Source: Streptomyces rochei
GTDB lineage: Bacteria > Actinomycetota > Actinomycetes > Streptomycetales > Streptomycetaceae
Direction of reading: 5' to 3'
Assembly: GCA_002155895.1 (NCBI GenBank)
Contig: MUMD01000010.1
Location: 1 to 43,500 of the forward strand
Length of the DNA stretch: 43,500 bases
This document shows, piece after piece, positions 1-19,962 of this stretch; the stretch's first letter is position 1, and every line of letters begins with the position of its first letter. Both the position numbers and the translations under genes were made by a program. The notes beneath the pieces were generated by a model. It made no database searches, was not told the DNA's origin, and worked only from the letters and a program-made list of their open reading frames with translations.

Positions 1-3000
1 GCCGCTCCCGCAGCCCCGGCCGCTCCGGCCGCGAAGCCCGCCGCCGCCCCGGCCAAGCCCGCCGCCAAGCCGCAGGCCAAGGCCGCCGCGCCCGCCAAGG
101 ACGCCGACTCCGCGCCCGAGGGCCCCGAGCTGGTGACCCTGCGCGGTCCCGCCGCCGCGGTCGCCAAGAACATGAACGCCTCGCTGGAGCTGCCCACGGC
201 CACGTCCGTGCGCGCGGTCCCGGTGAAGCTGCTGTTCGACAACCGCATCGTCATCAACAACCACCTCAAGCGCGCCCGGGGCGGGAAGATCTCCTTCACG
301 CACCTGATCGGCTACGCGATGGTGCAGGCCATCAAGGCCATGCCGGCGATGAACTACGCGTTCGGCGAGAAGGACGGCAAGCCGACGCTGATCAAGCCGC
401 CGCACGTCAACCTCGGTCTCGCCATCGACCTGGTCAAGCCCAACGGCGACCGCCAGCTGGTCGTCGCGGCGATCAAGAAGGCCGAGACCATGAACTTCTT
501 CGAGTTCTGGCAGGCCTACGAGGACATCGTCCGCCGCGCCCGCGACGGCAAGCTGACGATGGACGACTTCACCGGCGTCACGGTCTCCCTGACCAACCCC
601 GGCGGCCTCGGCACCGTCCACTCCGTGCCGCGCCTGATGCCCGGCCAGTCGGTGATCATGGGCGTCGGCTCCATGGACTACCCGGCGGAGTTCCAGGGCA
701 CCTCCCAGGACACCCTGAACAAGCTCGGCATCTCGAAGGTCATGACGCTCACGTCGACCTATGACCACCGGGTCATCCAGGGCGCCGCCTCCGGCGAGTT
801 CCTGCGCCAGGTCGCCAACCTGCTGCTCGGCGAGAACGGCTTCTACGACGACATCTTCAAGGCGCTGCGCATCCCCTACGAGCCGGTCCGCTGGCTCAAG
901 GACATCGACGCCTCGCACGACGACGACGTCACCAAGGCCGCCCGCGTCTTCGAGCTGATCCACTCCTACCGGGTCCGCGGCCACGTCATGGCCGACACCG
1001 ACCCGCTGGAGTACCAGCAGCGCAAGCACCCCGACCTGGACATCACCGAGCACGGGCTCACCCTGTGGGACCTGGAGCGGGAGTTCGCGGTCGGCGGCTT
1101 CGCCGGCAAGTCCCTGATGAAGCTGCGCGACATCCTCGGCGTGCTGCGCGACTCGTACTGCCGCACCACCGGCGTCGAGTTCATGCACATCCAGGACCCC
1201 AAGCAGCGCAAGTGGATCCAGGACCGCATCGAGCGCTCGCACACCAAGCCGGAGCGCGAGGAGCAGCTGCGCATCCTGCGCCGGCTCAACGCCGCCGAGG
1301 CGTTCGAGACGTTCCTGCAGACCAAGTACGTCGGCCAGAAGCGCTTCTCCCTGGAGGGCGGCGAGTCCGTCATCCCGCTGCTGGACGCGGTCATCGACTC
1401 GGCGGCCGAGTCCCGCCTGGACGAGGTCGTCATCGGCATGGCCCACCGCGGCCGGCTGAACGTCCTGGCCAACGTGGTCGGCAAGTCGTACGCGCAGATT
1501 TTCCGCGAGTTCGAGGGCAACCTCGACCCGAAGTCGATGCACGGCTCCGGCGACGTGAAGTACCACCTGGGCGCCGAGGGCACCTTCACGGGCCTGGACG
1601 GCGAGCAGATCAAGGTCTCGCTGGTCGCCAACCCCTCGCACCTGGAGGCGGTCGACCCGGTCCTGGAGGGCGTCGCCCGCGCCAAGCAGGACATCATCAA
1701 CAAGGGCGGCACGGACTTCACCGTCCTGCCGGTGGCGATCCACGGCGACGCGGCCTTCGCGGGCCAGGGCGTGGTGGCCGAGACCCTGAACATGTCGCAG
1801 CTGCGCGGCTACCGCACCGGCGGCACGGTCCACGTCGTCATCAACAACCAGGTCGGCTTCACCGCCGCCCCGGAGTCCTCGCGCTCCTCGATGTACGCCA
1901 CCGACGTGGCCCGCATGATCGAGGCCCCGATCTTCCACGTGAACGGCGACGACCCGGAGGCCGTGGTCCGCGTCGCGCGGCTCGCCTTCGAGTTCCGCCA
2001 GGCGTTCAACAAGGACGTGGTGATCGACCTCATCTGCTACCGCCGCCGCGGTCACAACGAGTCGGACAACCCGGCCTTCACCCAGCCGCTGATGTACGAC
2101 CTGATCGACAAGAAGCGCTCGGTGCGCAAGCTCTACACCGAGTCCCTCATCGGTCGCGGCGACATCACCCTGGAAGAGGCCGAGCAGGCGCTGCAGGACT
2201 ACCAGGGCCAGCTGGAGAAGGTCTTCACCGAGGTCCGCGAGGCCACCTCGCAGCCGTCCGCCGGTGAGTCCTCCGACCCGCAGGCCGAGTTCCCGGTCGC
2301 CGTGAACACCGCGGTGTCCAACGAGGTCGTCAAGCGCATCGCCGAGTCCCAGGTCAACATCCCCGACCACGTCACCATCCACCCGCGCCTGCTGCCGCAG
2401 CTGCAGCGCCGCGCGGCGATGGTCGAGGACGGCACGATCGACTGGGGCATGGGCGAGACCCTCGCCGTCGGCTCCCTCCTGCTGGAGGGCGTCCCGGTCC
2501 GCCTCGCGGGCCAGGACTCGCAGCGCGGCACCTTCGGCCAGCGCCACGCGGTGGTCATCGACCGCGAGACGGGCGACGAGTTCACCCCGCTGCTGTACCT
2601 GTCCGAGGACCAGGCCCGGTACAACGTCTACAACTCCCTGCTCTCCGAGTACGCGGCGATGGGCTTCGAGTACGGCTACTCGCTGGCCCGCCCCGACGCG
2701 CTGGTGATGTGGGAGGCGCAGTTCGGCGACTTCGTCAACGGCGCGCAGACGGTCGTGGACGAGTTCATCTCGTCGGCGGAGCAGAAGTGGAACCAGACGA
2801 GCGGCGTGGTGCTCCTGCTGCCGCACGGCTACGAGGGCCAGGGCCCGGACCACTCCTCGGCCCGCCCGGAGCGCTTCCTCCAGCTCTGCGCCCAGAACAA
2901 CATGACGGTCGCGATGCCGACCCTGCCGTCGAACTACTTCCACCTCCTGCGGTGGCAGGTGCACAACCCGCACCACAAGCCGCTGGTCGTCTTCACCCCG

Positions 3001-3486
3001 AAGTCGATGCTGCGCCTGAAGGCCGCGGCCTCGAAGGCGGAGGAGTTCACGACGGGCCAGTTCCGCCCGGTCATCGGCGACGACTCGGTCGACCCGGCCG
3101 CCGTCAAGAAGGTCGTCTTCACCGCCGGCAAGGTCTACTACGACCTCGACGCCGAGCGGAAGAAGCGCGGCGTCACGGACACGGCCATCATCCGCATCGA
3201 GCGCCTGTACCCGCTGCCGGGCGCCGAGCTCCAGGCGGAGATCGCCAAGTACCCGAACGCCGAGAAGTACCTGTGGGCGCAGGAGGAGCCGGCGAACCAG
3301 GGTGCCTGGCCGTTCATCGCGCTCAACCTGATCGACCACCTCGATCTGGCGGTCGGCGCAGACGTCCCGCACGGCGAGCGCCTGCGCCGCATCTCGCGCC
3401 CGCACAGCTCGTCCCCGGCCGTCGGTTCCGCCAAGCGGCACCAGGCCGAGCAGGAGCAGCTGGTGCGTGAGGTGTTCGAGGCGTAG
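1..3486 (+). CDS. kgd: Multifunctional 2-oxoglutarate metabolism enzyme (KGD/SucA type), 5'-truncated
   Basis: The reading frame is open from base 1, so the true start lies upstream; 1161 residues are present and roughly the first hundred are missing compared with the ~1230-1270 residue actinobacterial KGD family. The visible N-terminus is an Ala/Pro/Lys-rich flexible linker (codons 1-45). An E2-like acyltransferase domain follows, ending near codon 265 with the motif DHRVIQGA. The E1 thiamine-diphosphate dehydrogenase part covers the rest, with [14 protein letters not shown] near codon 322 and the ThDP/Mg signature [10 protein letters not shown]...NNQVGF near codons 582-618. In this family the protein decarboxylates 2-oxoglutarate and serves as the E1 (and succinyltransferase) part of the TCA-cycle 2-oxoglutarate dehydrogenase in the cytoplasm. 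A near-perfect terminator follows, so it is the last gene of its transcript. Identification is very secure; only the start is unseen. Confidence 0.97.
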
Positions 3487-3520
3487 CCCCCACGGGCCGC
3501 CACCGCGCCGCAGCGCGTCC

Positions 3521-3566
3521 GGGCCGGGCCGCACCCCCTCTCAGGGGGTGCGGCCCGGCCCCTTTT
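3521..3566 (+). terminator. Intrinsic terminator of kgd
   Basis: Perfect 18-bp inverted repeat (arms 3521-3538 and 3544-3561) with a 5-nt loop, followed by a C and four T residues. It sits 35 bp after the kgd stop codon and just before the next gene. Confidence 0.9.
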
Positions 3567-3587
3567 CCTGCACTTATCCTTGACCGC

Positions 3588-3770
3588 ATGTACTTCACCG
3601 ACCGAGGCATCGAGGAGCTGGAGAAGCGGCGCGGCGAGGAGGAGATCACCTTCGAGTGGCTCGCCGAGCAGCTGCGGACCTTCGTCGACCTGAACCCGGA
3701 CTTCGAGGTGCCGGTGGAGCGGCTGGCGACCTGGCTGGCGCGGCTGGACGACGAGGACGAGGACGAGTAG
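3588..3770 (+). CDS. Small acidic DUF6104-like protein
   Basis: A 60-residue acidic protein beginning MYFTDRGIEELEKRRGEEE and ending in an Asp/Glu run (DDEDEDE). No signal peptide or membrane segment is visible; the first two thirds look helical. It resembles the short conserved actinobacterial family DUF6104 that commonly sits directly behind kgd in Streptomyces, a position this copy shares (101 bp after kgd, with a strong terminator in between). That terminator means it should have its own promoter. Function is unknown and none is proposed. The start codon is the only reasonable ATG in the frame. Confidence 0.8.
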   Translation: MYFTDRGIEELEKRRGEEEITFEWLAEQLRTFVDLNPDFEVPVERLATWLARLDDEDEDE

Positions 3771-3824
3771 GCACGCAGAGTCCCGTCACGTGTCGCACGG
3801 GTCGCGGAGCGCCCCGCATGCCCG

Positions 3825-4652
3825 TCAGGGGCGCTTGGAGAGGCCGTAGGCCGTACCGAGCGCCCCGTGCGCGATCAGCAGGGCGCCGGCGGTGGTCCAG
3901 CCGCCGCTGTGGCGCCGCAGGCCCCAGGCGGTGAGCGGCAGACCGGCCGCCATCTGGGCGAGGGCCAGCGCGCGGGCTCCGGGCCCGCCCACCCAGGGCA
4001 TCCAGGCGGCGAGACGGCTCTCGTCGACGGTCGGGCGCCGTCCGGCCGCCTCGGTACACCGGGAGCCGGGCAGGGCGCGGGCGGCCTCGCCGAGGCGGTC
4101 GGCACCGTCACCGGGGGCCAGTCCGGCGGGGAGGGTGATTCCCGCGCGGGTGAGCACCGCCAGCAGTCCCCGCAGCCGGGCGCGCGCGTCGGCCTCGCGG
4201 TCCGGCCGGGTCAGCGCGTCCAGCGCCTGGAGGTCCAGTACGGGGTCCAGGCCGAGCCGGGCGGCGAAGGTGCGCATCGCCTCGTCCTCGCCGGCCGGGG
4301 TGCCGTCCGCGAGCCACACATAGCCGACGGGGCGGCGGAAGCCGGACGCGAGGGTGTAGCCGGCCCGGTCCGCGTCCCACCACAGGGCCAGTACGGGCCA
4401 GGGGGCGCCGACGGCGAGTGCAGCGGCCCAGCCGGTGACCACACGGTCGACCGGCTCGTCGCCGCGCCGCCAGGGGCCGCCCACCGGGACCAGCGCGCTC
4501 CACCCCTCACCGGCCGGGACCGACGGCATGCGCTCGCCCAGCAGCGGGGCCACGGCAGCGACGGAGTCCGGATCGGCGCGGCACAGGAGCAGGGCACCGG
4601 TGGCGTCCCCGGAGCCGGGGCGGAAGCCGGGGGCGGACTCATGCGTCGACAT
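3825..4652 (-). CDS. Hypothetical protein with two C-terminal hydrophobic segments
   Basis: A 275-residue protein of unknown function. The N-terminal ~200 residues are soluble-looking, rich in Ala/Pro/Trp, with a segment PWPVLALWWDADRAGYTLAS that may be a buried strand pair. The last ~60 residues contain two hydrophobic stretches (around ARALALAQMAAGLPLTAWGL and TTAGALLIAHGALGTAYGL) compatible with a C-terminal helical hairpin in the membrane. I chose ATG 4652; a GTG at 4658 is the alternative. A TAGTTT -10-like hexamer (4664 to 4659) would place the transcription start on the A of that ATG, and no Shine-Dalgarno is seen, so translation may be leaderless. It is convergent with the DUF6104 gene and divergent from the DUF4097 operon. 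Confidence 0.7.
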   Translation of the reverse strand: MSTHESAPGFRPGSGDATGALLLCRADPDSVAAVAPLLGERMPSVPAGEGWSALVPVGGPWRRGDEPVDRVVTGWAAALAVGAPWPVLALWWDADRAGYTLASGFRRPVGYVWLADGTPAGEDEAMRTFAARLGLDPVLDLQALDALTRPDREADARARLRGLLAVLTRAGITLPAGLAPGDGADRLGEAARALPGSRCTEAAGRRPTVDESRLAAWMPWVGGPGARALALAQMAAGLPLTAWGLRRHSGGWTTAGALLIAHGALGTAYGLSKRP

Positions 4653-4727
4653 GTTCACAAACTAGGGCAATCGCGCCCCTTCGGCCGGTCGCTGATCACC
4701 AGAACGGGTCCCTTGACTTTCGATGGC

Positions 4728-4760
4728 CGCGATATATCGTGAATGAGGAGGACGCGATAT
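4728..4760. promoter_or_regulatory. Candidate PadR operator upstream of the DUF4097-padR operon
   Basis: CGATATATCG is a perfect 10-bp palindrome at 4730-4739. The octamer CGCGATAT occurs at 4728-4735 and again at 4753-4760, a direct repeat with 25-bp period. The site lies between a TTGACT (4713-4718) and the first RBS of the operon. Many PadR proteins bind A/T-rich palindromes in front of their own operon, so autoregulation is inferred. Confidence 0.45.
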
Positions 4761-4788
4761 GCCGCGTTCAGTCGAGGAGGTCTGCACC

Positions 4789-5778
4789 ATGTCCGAGTGG
4801 TCCGTCGCGGAGCCCGGGAAGCTCACCTTCGACGAGTCCGTCACCGCACTCCAGGTCCGCATCGTCCACGGCACGGTGAACGTCGTGGGCACCGACGAGG
4901 GTTCCGCCCGCCTGGAGGTGTCCGAGATCGAGGGGCCGCCCCTGATCGTGACCCACCGGGACGGCGTGCTCACGGTGGCCTATGAGGACCTTCCCTGGAA
5001 GGGCTTCCTCAAGTGGCTGGACCGCAAGGGATGGCGCCGCAGCGCGGTGGTCTCCCTGGCCGTGCCGACCGGCACCCGCGTGGAGGTGGGGGCGGTGAGC
5101 GCGGCCGCCGTCGTCTCCGGGCTCGAGGAGCACGTCGAGGTGAAGGGCGTCTCCGGCGACACCACGCTGGTGGGCCTCACCGGCCCGGTCCGCGCCGACA
5201 CCGTCTCCGGGAGCGTGGAGGCGCAGGCCCTCACCGGGGACCTGCGGTTCCACTCCGTCTCGGGGGACCTGACGGTGGTGGAGGCGGGCTCCTCCGTCCG
5301 GGCGGACTCGGTGAGCGGTTCGATGATCGTCGACCTGGACACGGCGGGCGGGCCGACCGACATCAGCCTGACCAGCGTCTCGGGCGAGATCGCCATCCGG
5401 CTTCCCCAGCCGGCCGACGCGGAGGTGGAGGCGAGCACGGCCAGCGGCAGCGTCTCCAGCGCCTTCGAGGACCTGCGGGTGGCCGGCCAGTGGGGCGCCA
5501 AGCGGATCACGGGCCGGCTCGGCGCGGGCAGCGGCCGGCTGAAGGCCACCACCGTCTCCGGCTCGATCGCCCTGCTGCGCCGCCCGGCTGCGGAGGAGGC
5601 TCCGTGGGAGGAGGACGCGCCCCAGACACCCGACCCCGGTCACGGCCCCGGTCCCGGGCCCGATCACGGCCCGGTGGACGGCGTGCGGGGCACCTCGGGG
5701 GACAATTCCGCTTCCGGCCGGGAGCACGGCGCCACCGGTGACCCGGCCGACGGCACGACCGACAAGAAGGTGCTCTGA
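4789..5778 (+). CDS. DUF4097 beta-helix protein (putative adhesin-like), PadR-operon partner
   Basis: A 329-residue protein with a repeated strand pattern in which short VSG(D/S/E) turns recur about every 20 residues (VSGDTTLVG, VSGSVEAQ, VSGDLTVV, VSGSMIVD, VSGEIAIR), typical of the right-handed beta-helix DUF4097 family. There is no signal peptide, and the last ~60 residues are a Pro/Gly/His/Asp-rich disordered tail. Two in-frame starts each have a near-consensus RBS (GAGGAGG at 4745-4751 before ATG 4759, and GAGGAGG at 4774-4780 before ATG 4789). I prefer ATG 4789 because the upstream ATG lies within the candidate operator repeat. It is followed after one base by padR, so the two are surely co-transcribed. 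The family is often found with PadR regulators; its molecular role is not established. Confidence 0.85.
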   Translation: MSEWSVAEPGKLTFDESVTALQVRIVHGTVNVVGTDEGSARLEVSEIEGPPLIVTHRDGVLTVAYEDLPWKGFLKWLDRKGWRRSAVVSLAVPTGTRVEVGAVSAAAVVSGLEEHVEVKGVSGDTTLVGLTGPVRADTVSGSVEAQALTGDLRFHSVSGDLTVVEAGSSVRADSVSGSMIVDLDTAGGPTDISLTSVSGEIAIRLPQPADAEVEASTASGSVSSAFEDLRVAGQWGAKRITGRLGAGSGRLKATTVSGSIALLRRPAAEEAPWEEDAPQTPDPGHGPGPGPDHGPVDGVRGTSGDNSASGREHGATGDPADGTTDKKVL

Positions 5779-5779
5779 C

Positions 5780-6847
5780 ATGCCCCCCGTCTTCGCCCAC
5801 GGCCGCCTGCGCCTCTATCTGCTCAAGCTCCTGGACGAGGCCCCGCGCCACGGCTACGAGGTGATCCGGCTCCTCGAAGAGCGCTTCCAGGGCCTGTACG
5901 CGCCCTCGGCCGGCACGGTGTACCCGCGCCTGGCCAAGCTGGAGGCCGAGGGCCTGGTCACCCACACCACCGAGGGCGGGCGCAAGGTGTACGCCATCAC
6001 CGACGCCGGCCGCGCCGAGCTGGCCGACCGCAGCGGTGAGCTGGCCGACCTGGAGCTGGAGATCCGGGAGTCGGTCGCCGAGCTCGCCGCCGAGATCCGG
6101 GCCGACGTCCGCGGTGCCGCGGGCGACCTGCGCCGGGAGATGCGGGCCGCGGCCGGCGCGGCACGCCGGGGTGCCGGCTCCGGTGCGCAGGCCGAGGGCG
6201 ACGATTTCGCCACCGGCACCGCGAGCGCCGACGAGAAGGAGGCCTGGCGCGCGGCCAAGGAGGAGATGCGGCGCGTCAAGCAGGAGTGGAAGGAGCAGGC
6301 CCGCCGCGCCAAGGACGAGAGCCGTCGCGCCCGCGAGGAGGCCCAGCGTGCCCGGCGGCAGGCCAAGGAGGCCCAGGAGCGGGCCCGGGCACAGGCCCAG
6401 GAGGAGGTGCAGCGCATCGCCCAGCGGGTCCAGGAACAGGTGCAGGACCACTTCGCGCGCGGCGACTGGCCGACGGGTCTGCGTGAGGGGCTGAGCGAAC
6501 TGGCCAAGGAGGTCGGCGACTTCGGCAAGGACTTCGGGAAGGAGTTCGGCAGGGAGTGGGGCTTCGGCCGCTCGGAGGCCGGGCCGGCCGCCCACCGGGC
6601 CGAGTACGCGTCCACACCCGAGGATTTCCCCGCCGGTTACGCCCCCTCCTGGGCCCACGAGGACGCCGCGGAGTCCACCGGCGATCCCGCCCGCGATCTG
6701 GACCGGCTGCTCGACCGCTTCCGGGACGACATCCGCGACGCGGCCCGGGACCACGGGGTCACAGCCGACCAGCTCCGCGAGACGCGCCGGCACCTGTCGA
6801 CGGCCGCGGCCCACATCGGGGCGATACTGCGGACCCCCAAGCCCTGA
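5780..6847 (+). CDS. PadR-family transcriptional regulator with long coiled-coil tail
   Basis: A 355-residue protein. Residues 1-80 form the PadR winged helix (LRLYLLKLLDEAPRHGYEVI, then SAGTVYPRLAKLEAEGLV and the wing GGRKVYAITDAG). Residues ~85-235 are an extended, highly charged Ala/Arg/Glu helix with heptad character (for example KEEMRRVKQEWKEQARRA). The C-terminal ~110 residues carry Gly/Phe-rich turns and end in a helix. Typical PadR proteins are 110-190 residues, so this one is about twice the usual length, with an unusually long stalk. ATG 5780 starts one base after the upstream TGA. It probably represses its own operon through the palindrome at 4730-4739. The effector is unknown. Confidence 0.9.
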   Translation: MPPVFAHGRLRLYLLKLLDEAPRHGYEVIRLLEERFQGLYAPSAGTVYPRLAKLEAEGLVTHTTEGGRKVYAITDAGRAELADRSGELADLELEIRESVAELAAEIRADVRGAAGDLRREMRAAAGAARRGAGSGAQAEGDDFATGTASADEKEAWRAAKEEMRRVKQEWKEQARRAKDESRRAREEAQRARRQAKEAQERARAQAQEEVQRIAQRVQEQVQDHFARGDWPTGLREGLSELAKEVGDFGKDFGKEFGREWGFGRSEAGPAAHRAEYASTPEDFPAGYAPSWAHEDAAESTGDPARDLDRLLDRFRDDIRDAARDHGVTADQLRETRRHLSTAAAHIGAILRTPKP

Positions 6848-6947
6848 TCCCGCCGCGGTCTGGCACCCCCCGGCCCGACTCCCCGTCGCGACTCCCCCGG
6901 CTCGGCCCCTCGGGTGCCCGCCCGGGGGAGCGGCCGGGCCGCGCCCC

Positions 6948-7511
6948 TCAGGCGCAGGCTTCCCCGGTGTCACCGCCCAGCACCCGGGTCAACGACTCGT
7001 ACGTCACCCCGTGGTCGGCCAGCACCTCGGCGGGCACCCCGGGACGGACGGTCAGGGCGAGGAGGACGTGCTCGTCCCCGATCCACCGCTCGTGCCGGTC
7101 GACGGCGACCCGGAGCGCCTGCTCCAGCACCTTCTTGGCGTCCTTGCTGAAGCTGCGGTGCCCGGACCACCGGCGCCGGTCCTTCCGGTCGCCGGACAGG
7201 GCGCCGACACCGTGGGCCTCCTCCACCCGGGCGACGATCTCGGAGACGTCGATCCCGAGCCCGGCGAGCGCGTCGGCCTCGGCCCGCGACAGCCCGGCCC
7301 GGCGCCGCGCCTCCGTCAGCGCCTGCCGGACCGCCTCCCTGCGCCCGCCGACCCCCAGCGCGCCCAGCGCGAACGAGGCGCGGCTGCCCTCGCGGTCGAG
7401 CAGGGCGAGCAACAGGTGCTCCGGATCGACGGTCTGCGCCCGCGCCCCTTCGGCGTGCCCGACCGCCCCCTGCACCACGTCCCGGGCGTTCTTGGTGAAC
7501 CGCTCGAACAT
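6948..7511 (-). CDS. Stand-alone Clp N-terminal (R) domain protein
   Basis: A 187-residue protein beginning MFERFTKNARDVVQGAV, like the N-domain of ClpC/ClpB. Two Clp_N-type repeats are visible: DPEHLLLALLDREGS near residue 30 and GDEHVLLALTVRPGV near residue 147. There is no AAA+ module, no Walker motifs and no ClpP-binding loop, so it cannot be an unfoldase. By family analogy it could bind substrates or adaptor proteins. The start ATG (7511-7509) overlaps the TGA of the upstream HTH gene by one base (TGATG) and has a GGGAGG RBS inside that gene, indicating tight translational coupling. Confidence 0.9.
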   Translation of the reverse strand: MFERFTKNARDVVQGAVGHAEGARAQTVDPEHLLLALLDREGSRASFALGALGVGGRREAVRQALTEARRRAGLSRAEADALAGLGIDVSEIVARVEEAHGVGALSGDRKDRRRWSGHRSFSKDAKKVLEQALRVAVDRHERWIGDEHVLLALTVRPGVPAEVLADHGVTYESLTRVLGGDTGEACA

Positions 7512-15623: not shown

Positions 15624-16019
15624 ATGCTTTCCCGCCTGTTTGCCCCCAAGGTCACGGTCAGCGCCCACTGCGACCTGCCCTGCGGTGTGTACGACCCGGC
15701 CCAGGCCCGCATCGAGGCGGAGTCGGTGAAGGCCGTCCAGGAGAAGATGGCCGGCAACGACGACCCGCACTTCCAGACGCGTGCCACGGTCATCAAGGAG
15801 CAGCGCGCCGAGCTGGCGAAGCACCACGTCTCCGTGCTGTGGAGCGACTACTTCAAGCCCCCGCACTTCGAGAAGTACCCGGAGCTGCACCAGCTGGTCA
15901 ACGACACCCTGAAGGCCCTGTCGGCCGCCAAGGCCTCGAAGGACCCGGCGACCGGCCAGAAGGCGCTGGACTACATCGCCCAGATCGACAAGATCTTCTG
16001 GGAGACCAAGAAGGCCTGA
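15624..16019 (+). CDS. sodN: Nickel-containing superoxide dismutase
   Basis: A 131-residue precursor. The 14-residue propeptide MLSRLFAPKVTVSA ends just before His15, which becomes the mature N-terminus of the nickel hook HCDLPCGVYD; His1, Cys2 and Cys6 of the mature enzyme are all present. The rest is the expected four-helix bundle. It dismutates superoxide in the cytoplasm as a hexamer. The RBS is GAGGAAGGA, and a terminator with four T residues overlaps the stop codon. In S. coelicolor this mRNA is repressed by a small RNA derived from the sodF 3' UTR pairing near the RBS; the same control is plausible here but the sodF locus is not in the window. Confidence 0.98.
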   Translation: MLSRLFAPKVTVSAHCDLPCGVYDPAQARIEAESVKAVQEKMAGNDDPHFQTRATVIKEQRAELAKHHVSVLWSDYFKPPHFEKYPELHQLVNDTLKALSAAKASKDPATGQKALDYIAQIDKIFWETKKA

Positions 16020-16900: not shown

Positions 16901-16978
16901 CGGACCGGAGCCCTGGGCGGTGCGACCGTACGTCGGTCAGGTCCGTACGGTTCTGCACGGGCTCCGGGGTCCTGCCCC

Positions 16979-17011
16979 GGCCTCCCGGCGCGCGGGCGGC
17001 GCCGGGAGGCC
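16979..17011 (-). terminator. Terminator of the encapsulin-transferase operon
   Basis: Perfect 13-bp stem (GGCCTCCCGGCGC at 16979-16991 with 16999-17011) and a 7-nt loop, 8 bp past the transferase stop. Confidence 0.75.
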
Positions 17012-17018
17012 GTGAGGA

Positions 17019-18152
17019 TCAGGTGCTGCGCCGGGTCACGAACTCGGCCAGCGCGAGCAGGCCGCCCGCCGCCTCCGGATCGGGCACGGCACGGGCCAGC
17101 TCCTGCATGGCACGCGCCATGTGGTCGGCCGCCTGGGCCTGCGCCCAGTCCCGGCCGCCCGCCCGCTCCACGGCCAGGGCGCTGCGCTCCAGGTCCTCCT
17201 TGCCCTCCTCGTAGGGGGCCGCGTACAGCTCGGCGAGCTCGGCGGCGGCCGGGGTGCCGGAGGTCAGGGCGGCGACCACCGGCAGGGACTTCTTGCGGGC
17301 GGCCAGGTCCGCACCGGCCGGCTTGCCGGTGCGGCGCGGGTCGCCCCATATGCCGATCACGTCGTCGATGAGCTGGAACGCCAGCCCGGCCGCCCGGCCG
17401 AAGGCGTCCAGGGCGGCCACCTCCTCGTCGGCCGCCCCCGCGTACAGCGCACCGAGGGCGCAGGCGCATCCCAGCAGCGCGCCGGTCTTGGCCTCGGCCA
17501 TGACGAGCGTCTCGTCGAGGGTGACCTCGTCCGGGGCGCGCCGCTCCATGGCCGTGTCCGCGTGCTGGCCCTCGCAGAGTTCCATGACGCAGTCGGCGAG
17601 CCGGGCGGCGGCCGCCGCCGACGCCGGGTGCGGGTCCACGGCCAGCGACCGCAGGGCCAGCGCGTGCAGCGCGTCCCCGGCGAGGATGGCGTCGGCGTCC
17701 CCGAACACGGTCCACGCGGTCGGCCGGTGGCGCCGGGTGGCGTCACGGTCCATCACGTCGTCGTGCAGCAACGTGAAGTTGTGGACCAGCTCCACCGCCG
17801 CCGCGGCCGGCACCGCCGCCGCCCGGGCCGTGGGCCCGCCGAGGGCGGCGGCCGAGGCGAGGACGAGCGCCGGGCGGATCGCCTTGCCCGCGTTGCCGGT
17901 CGCCGGTGTGCCGTCCGCGTGCTGCCAGCCGAAGTGGTAGAGCGCGATCCGCCGCATGGAGGCGGGCAACGACGCGATCGCGGACCGCAGCGCGGGGTCG
18001 ACCGACGCCCGGGACTCCCGCAGGAGCACGGCCGCCTCCTGCCCGTCGGGCGTGCCCTCCGGCTCCTCCTCCCGCTGCGTGCCGATGCGCCCGTGCCTTT
18101 CCAGCGTGCCCGTGGGCCTCGCCCCGGCGGTGCCGTGCGGAGCCTCCGTCAT
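17019..18152 (-). CDS. Polyprenyl transferase, probable family 2 encapsulin cargo
   Basis: A 377-residue trans-isoprenyl diphosphate synthase. The first ~50 residues are Gly/Pro/Thr/Glu-rich and disordered, unlike ordinary prenyl synthases. The catalytic part has GKAIRP (Lys90, Arg93), the first Asp-rich motif HDDVMDRD (Asp131, 132, 135) with RRHRP, and the second motif LIDDVIGIWGD (Asp263, 264). Such enzymes condense isopentenyl diphosphate with allylic diphosphates. The gene follows the encapsulin-like shell gene by 88 bp on the same strand, the arrangement of the known 'family 2 encapsulin cargo polyprenyl transferase' group. The disordered tail is the likely cargo-loading segment. ATG 18152 has GGGGGAG upstream. 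Product chain length cannot be read reliably. Confidence 0.92.
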   Translation of the reverse strand: MTEAPHGTAGARPTGTLERHGRIGTQREEEPEGTPDGQEAAVLLRESRASVDPALRSAIASLPASMRRIALYHFGWQHADGTPATGNAGKAIRPALVLASAAALGGPTARAAAVPAAAAVELVHNFTLLHDDVMDRDATRRHRPTAWTVFGDADAILAGDALHALALRSLAVDPHPASAAAAARLADCVMELCEGQHADTAMERRAPDEVTLDETLVMAEAKTGALLGCACALGALYAGAADEEVAALDAFGRAAGLAFQLIDDVIGIWGDPRRTGKPAGADLAARKKSLPVVAALTSGTPAAAELAELYAAPYEEGKEDLERSALAVERAGGRDWAQAQAADHMARAMQELARAVPDPEAAGGLLALAEFVTRRST

Positions 18153-18240
18153 GGACTCGTCTCCCCCCGTGCGCCCTCGACCGTACCCCCGGGGTGTACC
18201 CGCCCGGGCGGGCGGGAACACGGCGTTCGGGAGGCTGGCG

Positions 18241-19647
18241 TCACTGCCAGCGGCCGATCTCGACGTTCTCCAGGATGCCGAGCGCGTCCGGCACCAGGAC
18301 GGCGGCCGAGTAGTAGGCCGTGACCAGGTACTTGATGATGGCCTGCTCGTTGATCCCCATGAAGCGCACCGACAGACTCGGCTCGATCTCGTCGGGGATG
18401 CCGGTGGCGCGCAGCCCGATCACACCCTGGTCCTGCTCGCCGGTACGCATCGCGATGATCGACGTCGTACGGGCCTCGGTGACCGGGATCTTGTTGCACG
18501 GGTAGATCGGCACACCGCGCCAGGTGGGGATGCGGTTGCCGGCGATGTCGATCGTCTCCGGGACGAGTCCGCGCTTGTTGAGCTCGCGGCCGATCGCGGC
18601 GATGGCCCGCGGGTGGGCGAGGAGCAGCTTGGTGCCGCGCCGACGGCTCAGCAGTTCGTCGAGGTCGTCCGGCCCGGGGACGCCGTCGTGCGGCTGGATC
18701 CGCTGGTCGTACTCGCAGTTGTGCAGCAGACCGAACTCACGGTTGTTGACCAGCTCGTGCTCCTGGCGTTCCTTCAACGCCTCGACGGTCAGCCGGATCT
18801 GCTGCTCCGTCTGGTTCATCGGCTGGTTGTAGAGGTCGGCCACGCGCGAGTGGATGCGCAGCACGGTCTGGGCGACACTCAGCTCGTACTCGCGAGGCCG
18901 CGCCTCGTAGTCGACGAAGGTGTGCGGGATGTCCGGCTCGCCGCTGTGGCCGGCGGAGAGGTCGATCGCCTTCTCGCCGTGCCTGTTGGTGGGCTGCTGG
19001 GGCAGGGAGCGGCGCTCCTCGAGGTGGGCGCGGAGCGAGTCCGAGCGCTCCGCGATCTGCTCCACCTCCTGGCGCGGCAGGACCAGCACGGTGCAGGCGG
19101 TGACCGTGCGGGCGGTGTACTCCCAGATGGCGTCCCCGTCCAGCAGCGCCTCGTCGCCGAAGTACGCGCCGTCGGCGAGGACGCCGAGCACCGCGTCGTC
19201 GCCGTAGGGGCCGGTGCCGATCTTCTCCACCTTGCCGTGGGCCAGCAGGTACACCTCGTCGGCCTGGGCGCCGAACGAGGCGATCACCTCGCCCGGGCCG
19301 AACTCCCGCTGCGTGCAGCGCTGCGCGAGTTCCGAGAGGACCTCCTCGTCCTCGTACGACCGCAGCGCCGGCAGTTCGCCCAGTTCGGCGGGGATGACCT
19401 CGACGCGGTCGCCGGTCTTCACGAAGGTCACGCGGCCGTCGCCGACCGCGAAGGTCATGCGTCGGTTCACCCGGTACGTGCCGCCCTGGATGTCCACCCA
19501 GGGAAGTGTGCGCAGCAGCCAGCGAGAGCTGATCTCCTGCATCTGGGGAACGGACTTGGTCGTGGTGGCCAGGTTCCGCGCGGCCGCCGTGCCGAGGCTC
19601 TGCTGCGGCCTGGCCTGCTCTGTGCGGACCTCTTCGCCTACCGACAT
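18241..19647 (-). CDS. Family 2B encapsulin shell protein with cyclic-nucleotide-binding domain (EshA/EshB family)
   Basis: A 468-residue protein of the EshA family, now classed as HK97-fold family 2B encapsulin. The N-arm and first shell segment span residues 1-90 ([23 protein letters not shown] split by a short loop). A Crp-like cyclic-nucleotide-binding domain occupies ~95-212 ([31 protein letters not shown]), inserted in the shell fold. The remaining shell domain follows ([42 protein letters not shown]). By family knowledge it assembles into an icosahedral compartment around a cargo enzyme, here probably the downstream polyprenyl transferase. It is divergent from an amidase gene across a 315-bp promoter region. 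The nucleotide ligand and its effect are not known. Confidence 0.93.
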
Positions 19648-19962
19648 AAGGAATTGCCCTCCCGGTCATGCCGGACGACTGCGCCCGGCATCGATGTGCG
19701 GGAACCAGCCTTCCTCACGGAGCGTGCCGGTGCTATTACCCGAAAGAGCGGGAATGGATCACCGGGCGGCGGGGCAGTGATGCGGGCTTGATCGACGTAT
19801 CACCGACTTGTCCGGTGCAGGTCAGGGCCGTCGGCCGGGGTGGTTCTGGCCGAAACGACTCGCACAGGGACCGAACAAGTCGTAGGCAGCACTCCGTTTC
19901 GGTAGAAGCTCCGTACGAGGCGGTCGCGCCGGGCGGCCGTCGCGCAGCGTAAGGAGTCGGCC
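19648..19962. other. Divergent promoter region, encapsulin operon / amidase
   Basis: 315 bp without a gene. On the plus side AAGGAG (19951-19956) is the amidase RBS. Several short A/T-containing stretches could be -10 elements, but I found no convincing -35/-10 pair or operator. The minus-strand gene has GGGAGG upstream of its ATG. Confidence 0.5.

Follow-up and report, generated by a model that had tools for sequence, protein, structure and literature searches.

Shell and synthase genes at the locus

The window analyzed here is a 43,500-nucleotide stretch of Streptomyces rochei DNA (contig MUMD01000010.1, positions 1 to 43,500 of the forward strand). Its reverse strand carries a two-gene unit made up of an encapsulin shell gene and, 88 bp after it, a gene for a short-chain prenyl diphosphate synthase (Table 1). 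Here, on sequence-based evidence throughout, the unit is read as an EshB-type family 2B encapsulin operon, in which a self-assembling shell probably packages the adjoining synthase. The original prediction had placed a family 2B shell with an inserted cyclic-nucleotide-binding-type domain at this position, together with a polyprenyl synthase cargo gene 88 bp away on the same strand, and all of these elements were recovered.

On NF041163, the curated NCBIfam model for family 2B shells, the shell protein reached 772.4 bits (cut-off, 400). In a domain search, the inserted domain (PF00027) preceded the SrpI-like domain PF19307 (455 bits), and a structure search with the AlphaFold model of the shell returned cyclic-nucleotide-binding folds. 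The closest solved shell was PDB entry 9bhu (2e-197, covering shell residues 6 to 467), which is titled as a Streptomyces griseus family 2B encapsulin shell and which we take to be the shell from a 2-methylisoborneol (2-MIB) operon. The shell also matched 9bix and 9bje, presumably the two-component encapsulin of Streptomyces lydicus. The list of structure matches obtained from the shell model was relied on solely for the nucleotide-binding-like domain and for the 9bhu title.

The synthase scored 488.1 bits on NF041169 (cut-off, 450), a model named "family 2 encapsulin nanocompartment cargo protein polyprenyl transferase." With the matches to NF041163 and NF041169, both proteins are already named by current annotation models. 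PF00348 was matched with 197.6 bits, and the score on NF045549, the model for the geranylgeranyl diphosphate synthase IdsB, was 364.9 bits, below the equivalog cut-off of 475. The gene was read from the ATG at 18152; an alternative GTG at 18221 would give a protein of 400 amino acids. The AlphaFold model of the synthase was confident (predicted local distance difference test [pLDDT], 87; predicted template modeling score, 0.86). Its closest solved relative was PDB entry 3nf2, a putative polyprenyl synthetase (4.4e-94), whose N-terminal stretch resembles that of a shell-unlinked paralog from the same genome (contig C223), unlike that of the window synthase.

Both aspartate-rich motifs were present in the synthase. 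The first, within the context ELVHNFTLLHDDVMD, was found in all 167 unique relatives, with Phe at position -5 in 166 and Thr at position -4 in 165 of them, and the two aspartates of the second (D263 and D264) were invariant across an alignment of 40 sequences (A2). Phe at -5 is a residue of chain-length control. The chain-length residues suggest a product of C15 to C20, within which C15 and C20 are not separable. A near-identical context was seen in the shell-operon synthases that stand beside a geosmin synthase gene (loci L328, L329, and L341).

A terminator had been predicted after the synthase gene. A strong hairpin does lie there, without a U-run, and a pattern scan for U-run terminators listed no site on the operon strand.

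Table 1. Positions of the operon genes and of the sequence features discussed in the text
Feature	Position in the window	Strand	Basis
Family 2B encapsulin shell gene, 468 amino acids, most likely EshB type	18241..19647	-	NF041163; PF19307 and PF00027; matches to PDB 9bhu, 9bix, and 9bje
Cyclic-nucleotide-binding-type domain, PF00027, shell residues 114-201	19045..19308	-	PF00027 cNMP_binding, 65 bits
Codon of Trp175, counterpart of the cyclic-phosphate Arg in the ungapped CRP alignment	19123..19125	-	
C-terminal HK97-type shell domain, PF19307, residues 216-466	18250..19002	-	Domain and PDB homology
Polyprenyl (short-chain prenyl) diphosphate synthase gene, family 2 encapsulin cargo type, 377 amino acids	17019..18152	-	NF041169; PF00348; AlphaFold model
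Disordered N-terminal extension, synthase residues 1-33	18054..18152	-	pLDDT <50
Clade-limited extension motif [EDR]-R-[RHQG]-x-x-I-[GA], ERHGRIG in the window	18081..18101	-	
Start of synthase helix 1, DGQEAAVLLRESR, residues 36-48	18009..18047	-	Helix 36-60 in the AlphaFold model
First aspartate-rich motif DDVMD, residues 131-135, Phe at -5, Thr at -4	17748..17762	-	
Second aspartate-rich motif DDVIG, residues 263-267	17352..17366	-	Pattern in 165/167 relatives
Terminator-like hairpin 3' of the synthase gene, without U-run	16978..17012	-	91-nucleotide stretch folds at -51.7 kcal/mol, z -3.06
Conserved upstream element GATCCATTCCCGCTCTTTCGGGTAATAGCAC, about 31 bp	19730..19760	-	

Conservation of the gene pair

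Orthologs were defined as the listed matches of at least 70% identity for the shell and at least 66% for the synthase, cut-offs that were set at breaks in the match lists (from about 70 to 69-68% and from 66 to 55%, respectively). Across 121 genomes of the genus, shell orthologs were found at 98 places in 95 genomes and synthase orthologs at 93 places in 93 genomes, three of the latter (G045, G082, and G102) with partial query coverage. These formed 90 adjacent same-strand pairs. When the best 80 of 477 named loci were considered, the shell gene lay just upstream of the synthase gene in 79, and the remaining locus begins at a contig edge. No shell was found within about 3 kb of any of the 20 more distant synthase paralogs examined.

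Eight shell places had no adjacent synthase ortholog. In G112, the unit is split by a contig break, and in G051 and G010 a geosmin-type cyclase adjoins the shell. Three more are second shells: those of G053 and G052 adjoin a 2-MIB-type cyclase, and that of G114 (L129), near a contig end, has an upstream variant identical to theirs. The last two (G101 and G006) are weighed below. Three synthases had no adjacent shell; two of them (G112 and G102) lie at contig ends, and the third is that of G076.

The available text of PMC8049743 names the polyprenyl diphosphate synthase gene as the most frequent neighbor of family 2b shells, and that of Andreas and Giessen (2021; PMC8346489) counts 900 synthase-linked encapsulin operons, 888 of them in Actinobacteria. 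Like the family 2B operons described there, the window unit combines an inserted-domain shell with an adjacent synthase in an actinobacterial host. The locus is thus a further example of an operon type that is widespread and already catalogued.

Probable assignment to EshB rather than EshA

The neighborhood of the operon contains sodN, a sigma factor of the SigB/F/G family, and an RsbW-like protein. A similar set presumably surrounds SCO5249 of Streptomyces coelicolor, where we take the region SCO5243 to SCO5254 to include the prenyl synthase SCO5250, sodN, and the sigH region. SCO5249 is eshB, and eshA of the same species is SCO7699 (PMC3878966, in its available part). Since the window shell is linked to a synthase and its neighbors fit the assumed SCO5249 region, it is most likely of EshB type; the likeness to SCO5249 is one of gene neighborhood. 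The shell had originally been called EshA-like. This holds for the shell family and is otherwise imprecise, because both the synthase linkage and the neighbors point to EshB. What has been published on EshA phenotypes should not be assigned to the window shell without a test.

In Streptomyces venezuelae, eshA is the first gene of the 2-MIB operon and is directly activated by BldC, according to the available part of PMC6428758. The eshA/2-MIB encapsulins (SCO7699 and the S. griseus shell of 9bhu) belong to the same shell family as the window shell, and shells of 2-MIB-type operons have a variant of the upstream element described below. Their cargo is a terpene cyclase, whereas that of the window operon would be a prenyl synthase. 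The two-component encapsulin of S. lydicus, as far as PMC12407261 describes it, is again of the same shell family and has a divergent nucleotide-binding-like domain, as in the window; unlike the window operon, that system comprises two shell proteins and a xylulose kinase.

The sodN gene itself (nickel superoxide dismutase, 198 bits) lies downstream of the operon at a distance of about 1 kb, at 15624 to 16019 on the forward strand.

Packaging or co-regulation

For S. lydicus Enc2, a T=1 particle built from 60 subunits and measuring about 28 nm has been shown (PMC12407261, available part), and the EshB shell would self-assemble in the same manner. Gene pairing and family assignment suggest that the synthase from the next gene would be packaged in this shell. 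C5 substrates would then reach the interior by way of shell pores, over part of which the nucleotide-binding-like domains would lie, facing outward. The C15 to C20 diphosphate would be formed inside the particle.

Several observations weigh against this reading. In G101, the shell is intact and the adjoining synthase gene is internally deleted, leaving an open frame of 112 amino acids (L124, 7520 to 7858). In G006, the shell occurs without any synthase ortholog, although the genes upstream of it keep their order. In G076 (L131, 4995 to 6500), the shell gene is gone, and the upstream element and an intact synthase (490 bits on NF041169) are kept. In 16 of the 167 unique relatives, no more than 20 residues are possible before the first helix of the synthase, whichever start codon is chosen. 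Finally, the AlphaFold model of the window shell had a mean pLDDT of 49 and was poor outside the nucleotide-binding-like domain. Because the model is unreliable in that part, the HK97 assignment draws on solved relatives: judged by the full-length match to 9bhu and by PF19307, the shell is probably an HK97-type protein.

Since the two genes are separable, as in G101, G006, and G076, their adjacency might reflect co-regulation, with one promoter serving the shell and a prenyl synthase that stays free in the cytoplasm, without any enclosure. Such an arrangement would also agree with the lack of a loading motif common to all synthases read. It fits less well with the high conservation of the pairing (90 pairs and 79 of the best 80 loci), with the pairs of diverged shells and synthases seen at 9 of 20 loci from other actinomycete families, and with the membership of the synthase in the curated cargo family NF041169. 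Thus, co-regulation alone is considered unlikely, and packaging by an EshB-type shell is the reading that we prefer.

The available text of PMC8346489 describes a disordered N-terminal domain of 50 to 100 residues, without a conserved motif, in synthases of this class and proposes a role in loading. In the window synthase, by comparison, the disorder covers about 33 residues from the ATG start and would reach about 56 if the GTG start were used. The extension was hypervariable across 172 synthases (167 unique). With the chosen start and counting to a point inside helix 1, it was at most 30 residues long in 54 of the 167. Nine shell-linked synthases of other actinomycete families (49 to 57% identical; 9 of 20 loci) also appeared short, depending on the choice of start. 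A long N-terminal domain therefore does not appear to be a general requirement for loading, because 16 of the 167 relatives cannot have one. This suggests that the loading signal proposed for the polyprenyl-synthase cargo class is not general either, since some relatives are without a long N-terminus.

Two short motifs were considered as loading signals. The extension motif was found in 31 of the 167 unique relatives (mean of 0.31 and maximum of 3 in shuffled extensions); as 136 are without the ERxxxI[GA] form, it was rejected as the loading peptide and is regarded as a clade-limited feature. At the start of helix 1, a loose form of GxEAA, which resembles the cyclase tag GTSAA, was present in 138 of the 167 EshB-type synthases. 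It was rejected as a universal loading motif, being missing from all nine shell-linked synthases read from other families; two further ones (L342 and L343; 32 to 34% identical) lie outside this set of nine. No peptide common to all of the shell-linked synthases compared was found.

Inserted nucleotide-binding-type domain

The original prediction also supposed that the shell senses a nucleotide. In an ungapped alignment with what we take to be the CRP sequence, the cyclic-phosphate arginine falls opposite Trp175, and in a gapped HMMER alignment with a PKG domain it falls opposite Ala173. Under both alignments, the arginine of the phosphate-binding cassette is absent from the window shell. Tryptophan occupied the Trp175 position in 184 of 185 unique shells (198 of 199 with some duplicates included).

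A cyclic-nucleotide-gated container, in which the inserted domain would sense cyclic AMP (cAMP) or a related nucleotide, might be expected from the PF00027 match and the cyclic-nucleotide-binding fold, and EshA is termed cAMP-binding in the available part of a review (PMC6627660). Sensing of cyclic nucleotides by the window shell is nevertheless unlikely, because the canonical arginine is missing and the available text of PMC12407261 describes the family 2B domain as not binding them; with the near-invariant tryptophan also set against it, we give a gated container very little credence. The domain, which appears to be without a canonical cyclic-nucleotide pocket, more likely covers a pore or has some other ligand. 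A nucleotide-binding-like domain that has a near-invariant tryptophan and no cyclic-phosphate arginine may point to a different ligand or to a purely structural role.

Geosmin synthase as a possible second cargo

Geosmin is the compound behind the smell of soil. As predicted, no terpene cyclase is encoded nearby: PF19086 had no match on the window contig, and the five matches in the genome lie on contigs C12 (two), C203, C33, and C270. The geosmin-type synthase of this strain, on contig C12, has LTGPGTSAADVGALLARA between its two domains. The TGPGTSAAD of this linker is near GPTGLGTSAAR, which the available part of PMC8346489 proposes as a cargo targeting consensus. In the same genome, the EshB shell is the single family 2B shell over the cut-off; two other shell matches (C803 and C176) cover the inserted domain only and are far under it. 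Because the geosmin synthase carries this tag-like stretch although the sole 2B shell found is the synthase-linked one, the shell may hold two isoprenoid enzymes, and the earlier conclusion that the prenyl product has to be consumed elsewhere is not compelling. In such a particle, the EshB shell would package both the adjoining synthase and the distant geosmin synthase, and the former would supply farnesyl diphosphate to the cyclase inside. This is put forward tentatively, as a possibility with the odds somewhat against it.

The tag was common among geosmin synthases. Of 48 geosmin loci fetched (28 + 20), 38 were counted with a fixed pattern that was applied to the linker or the C-terminus. 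It was present in 34, against 0.78 expected from shuffling these stretches. The other four had near variants. Eight of the ten uncounted loci were read and contained tag-like stretches; L325 and L326 were left out. Thirteen of the 121 genus genomes have a single strong shell match, and in all 11 of these in which the geosmin synthase was read, it bore the tag. Among 30 chosen genomes, 28 had a geosmin synthase; the exceptions, G008 and G050 (82% complete), had weak shell matches only.

A survey of 296 genomes of the class gave a similar picture. A geosmin synthase (match at E 1e-150 or better) was found in 67 genomes. Full 2B shells were counted in 70 genomes, namely those whose match extended beyond the C-terminal part and G285, with 11 2A-like ones set aside; G285 was above the cut-off although matched over the C-terminal part only, a point against the association. 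Full 2B shells occurred in 64 of the 67 genomes with a geosmin synthase, compared with 6 of the 229 without one. Of the three remaining genomes, G214 contains a shell truncated by the end of its contig, G138 contains a 2A-like shell, without the inserted domain, that adjoins the geosmin-type gene, and the third is G404. The pairing of a geosmin-type synthase with a 2A-like shell at this G138 locus (L310) was not seen in the other loci read.

In L329 (G302, 1226 to 7373), two shell genes, a prenyl synthase gene, and a geosmin synthase gene form a tight same-strand run. The same order was found in L328, with a gap of 1.4 kb before the geosmin gene, and in L341, again with a gap and with the shell cut. 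Together with the tag and co-occurrence counts, these runs make it plausible that EshB takes both enzymes.

Other points tell against a second cargo. Kinship among the genomes inflates the shell-geosmin association, and for 30 of the 67 geosmin synthases a full shell is encoded no more than 5 kb away anyway, though for only 1 of the 28 in the genus Streptomyces. In G404, the geosmin synthase is tagged and a shell was not found. The geosmin synthase of this strain, at 1130.9 bits, falls short of the cargo cut-off (1200), the chain-length residues of the prenyl synthase fit C20 as well as the C15 of farnesyl diphosphate, and the tag itself is a published suggestion. The fuller proposal, in which EshB would be a shared isoprenoid reactor that takes the operon synthase and, in trans, the tagged geosmin synthase, coupling farnesyl diphosphate to geosmin, with the geosmin gene having moved away in Streptomyces and kept its tag, is offered as a rather doubtful one. 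A tagged geosmin synthase encoded far from the shell, in genomes whose sole 2B shell is linked to the prenyl synthase, bears on whether a distant gene can furnish encapsulin cargo and on why an isoprenoid enzyme should be enclosed.

Upstream element and other candidate regulatory features

For the preferred reading of one operon with one packaged synthase, expression would probably be set at the conserved element upstream of the shell gene. The core of this element starts 83 to 136 bp before the shell start. Of 171 unique upstream regions, 154 contained a fixed core pattern, which did not occur in any of 10 shuffle rounds. Among the remaining 17 regions, 12 differ by a few bases (as judged by eye), L126 to L129 have looser variants, and L130 has none. 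In the genome of this strain, the 19-base core had one exact match, before this shell gene, and one match elsewhere with two mismatches. A related pattern, whose last base excludes the copy in the window, had a single match in each of 9 of 26 genomes, and all nine lay before the shell ortholog. Thus, the element appears to be nearly operon specific.

Two of the looser variants (L127 and L128) precede shells beside 2-MIB-type cyclases. In other shell lineages, 60 shell upstream regions, 41 of which belong to single or first shells, had no match to the fixed pattern and three matches to a loose one. The element thus tracks the single-shell lineage and not one cargo. As a perfect palindrome it was rejected, since perfect arms were present in 55 of the 125 regions that fit the pattern. 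A SigB-type promoter upstream of the shell was likewise rejected (3 of 167, under the shuffle mean of 9.77). A leader hairpin near the ribosome site was patchy, with a stem of at least 7 in 35 of 102 long leaders and in none of 63 short ones.

On the opposite strand, Rfam family RF02735 (Sernc350, an antisense small RNA of Saccharopolyspora) matched 19109 to 19613, antisense to the 5' part of the shell gene, with 160.6 bits (gathering threshold, 50). The alignment contains many non-standard pairs, and the match is probably one of coding-sequence homology. It also gives a hint that genes of this kind may have antisense transcripts elsewhere.

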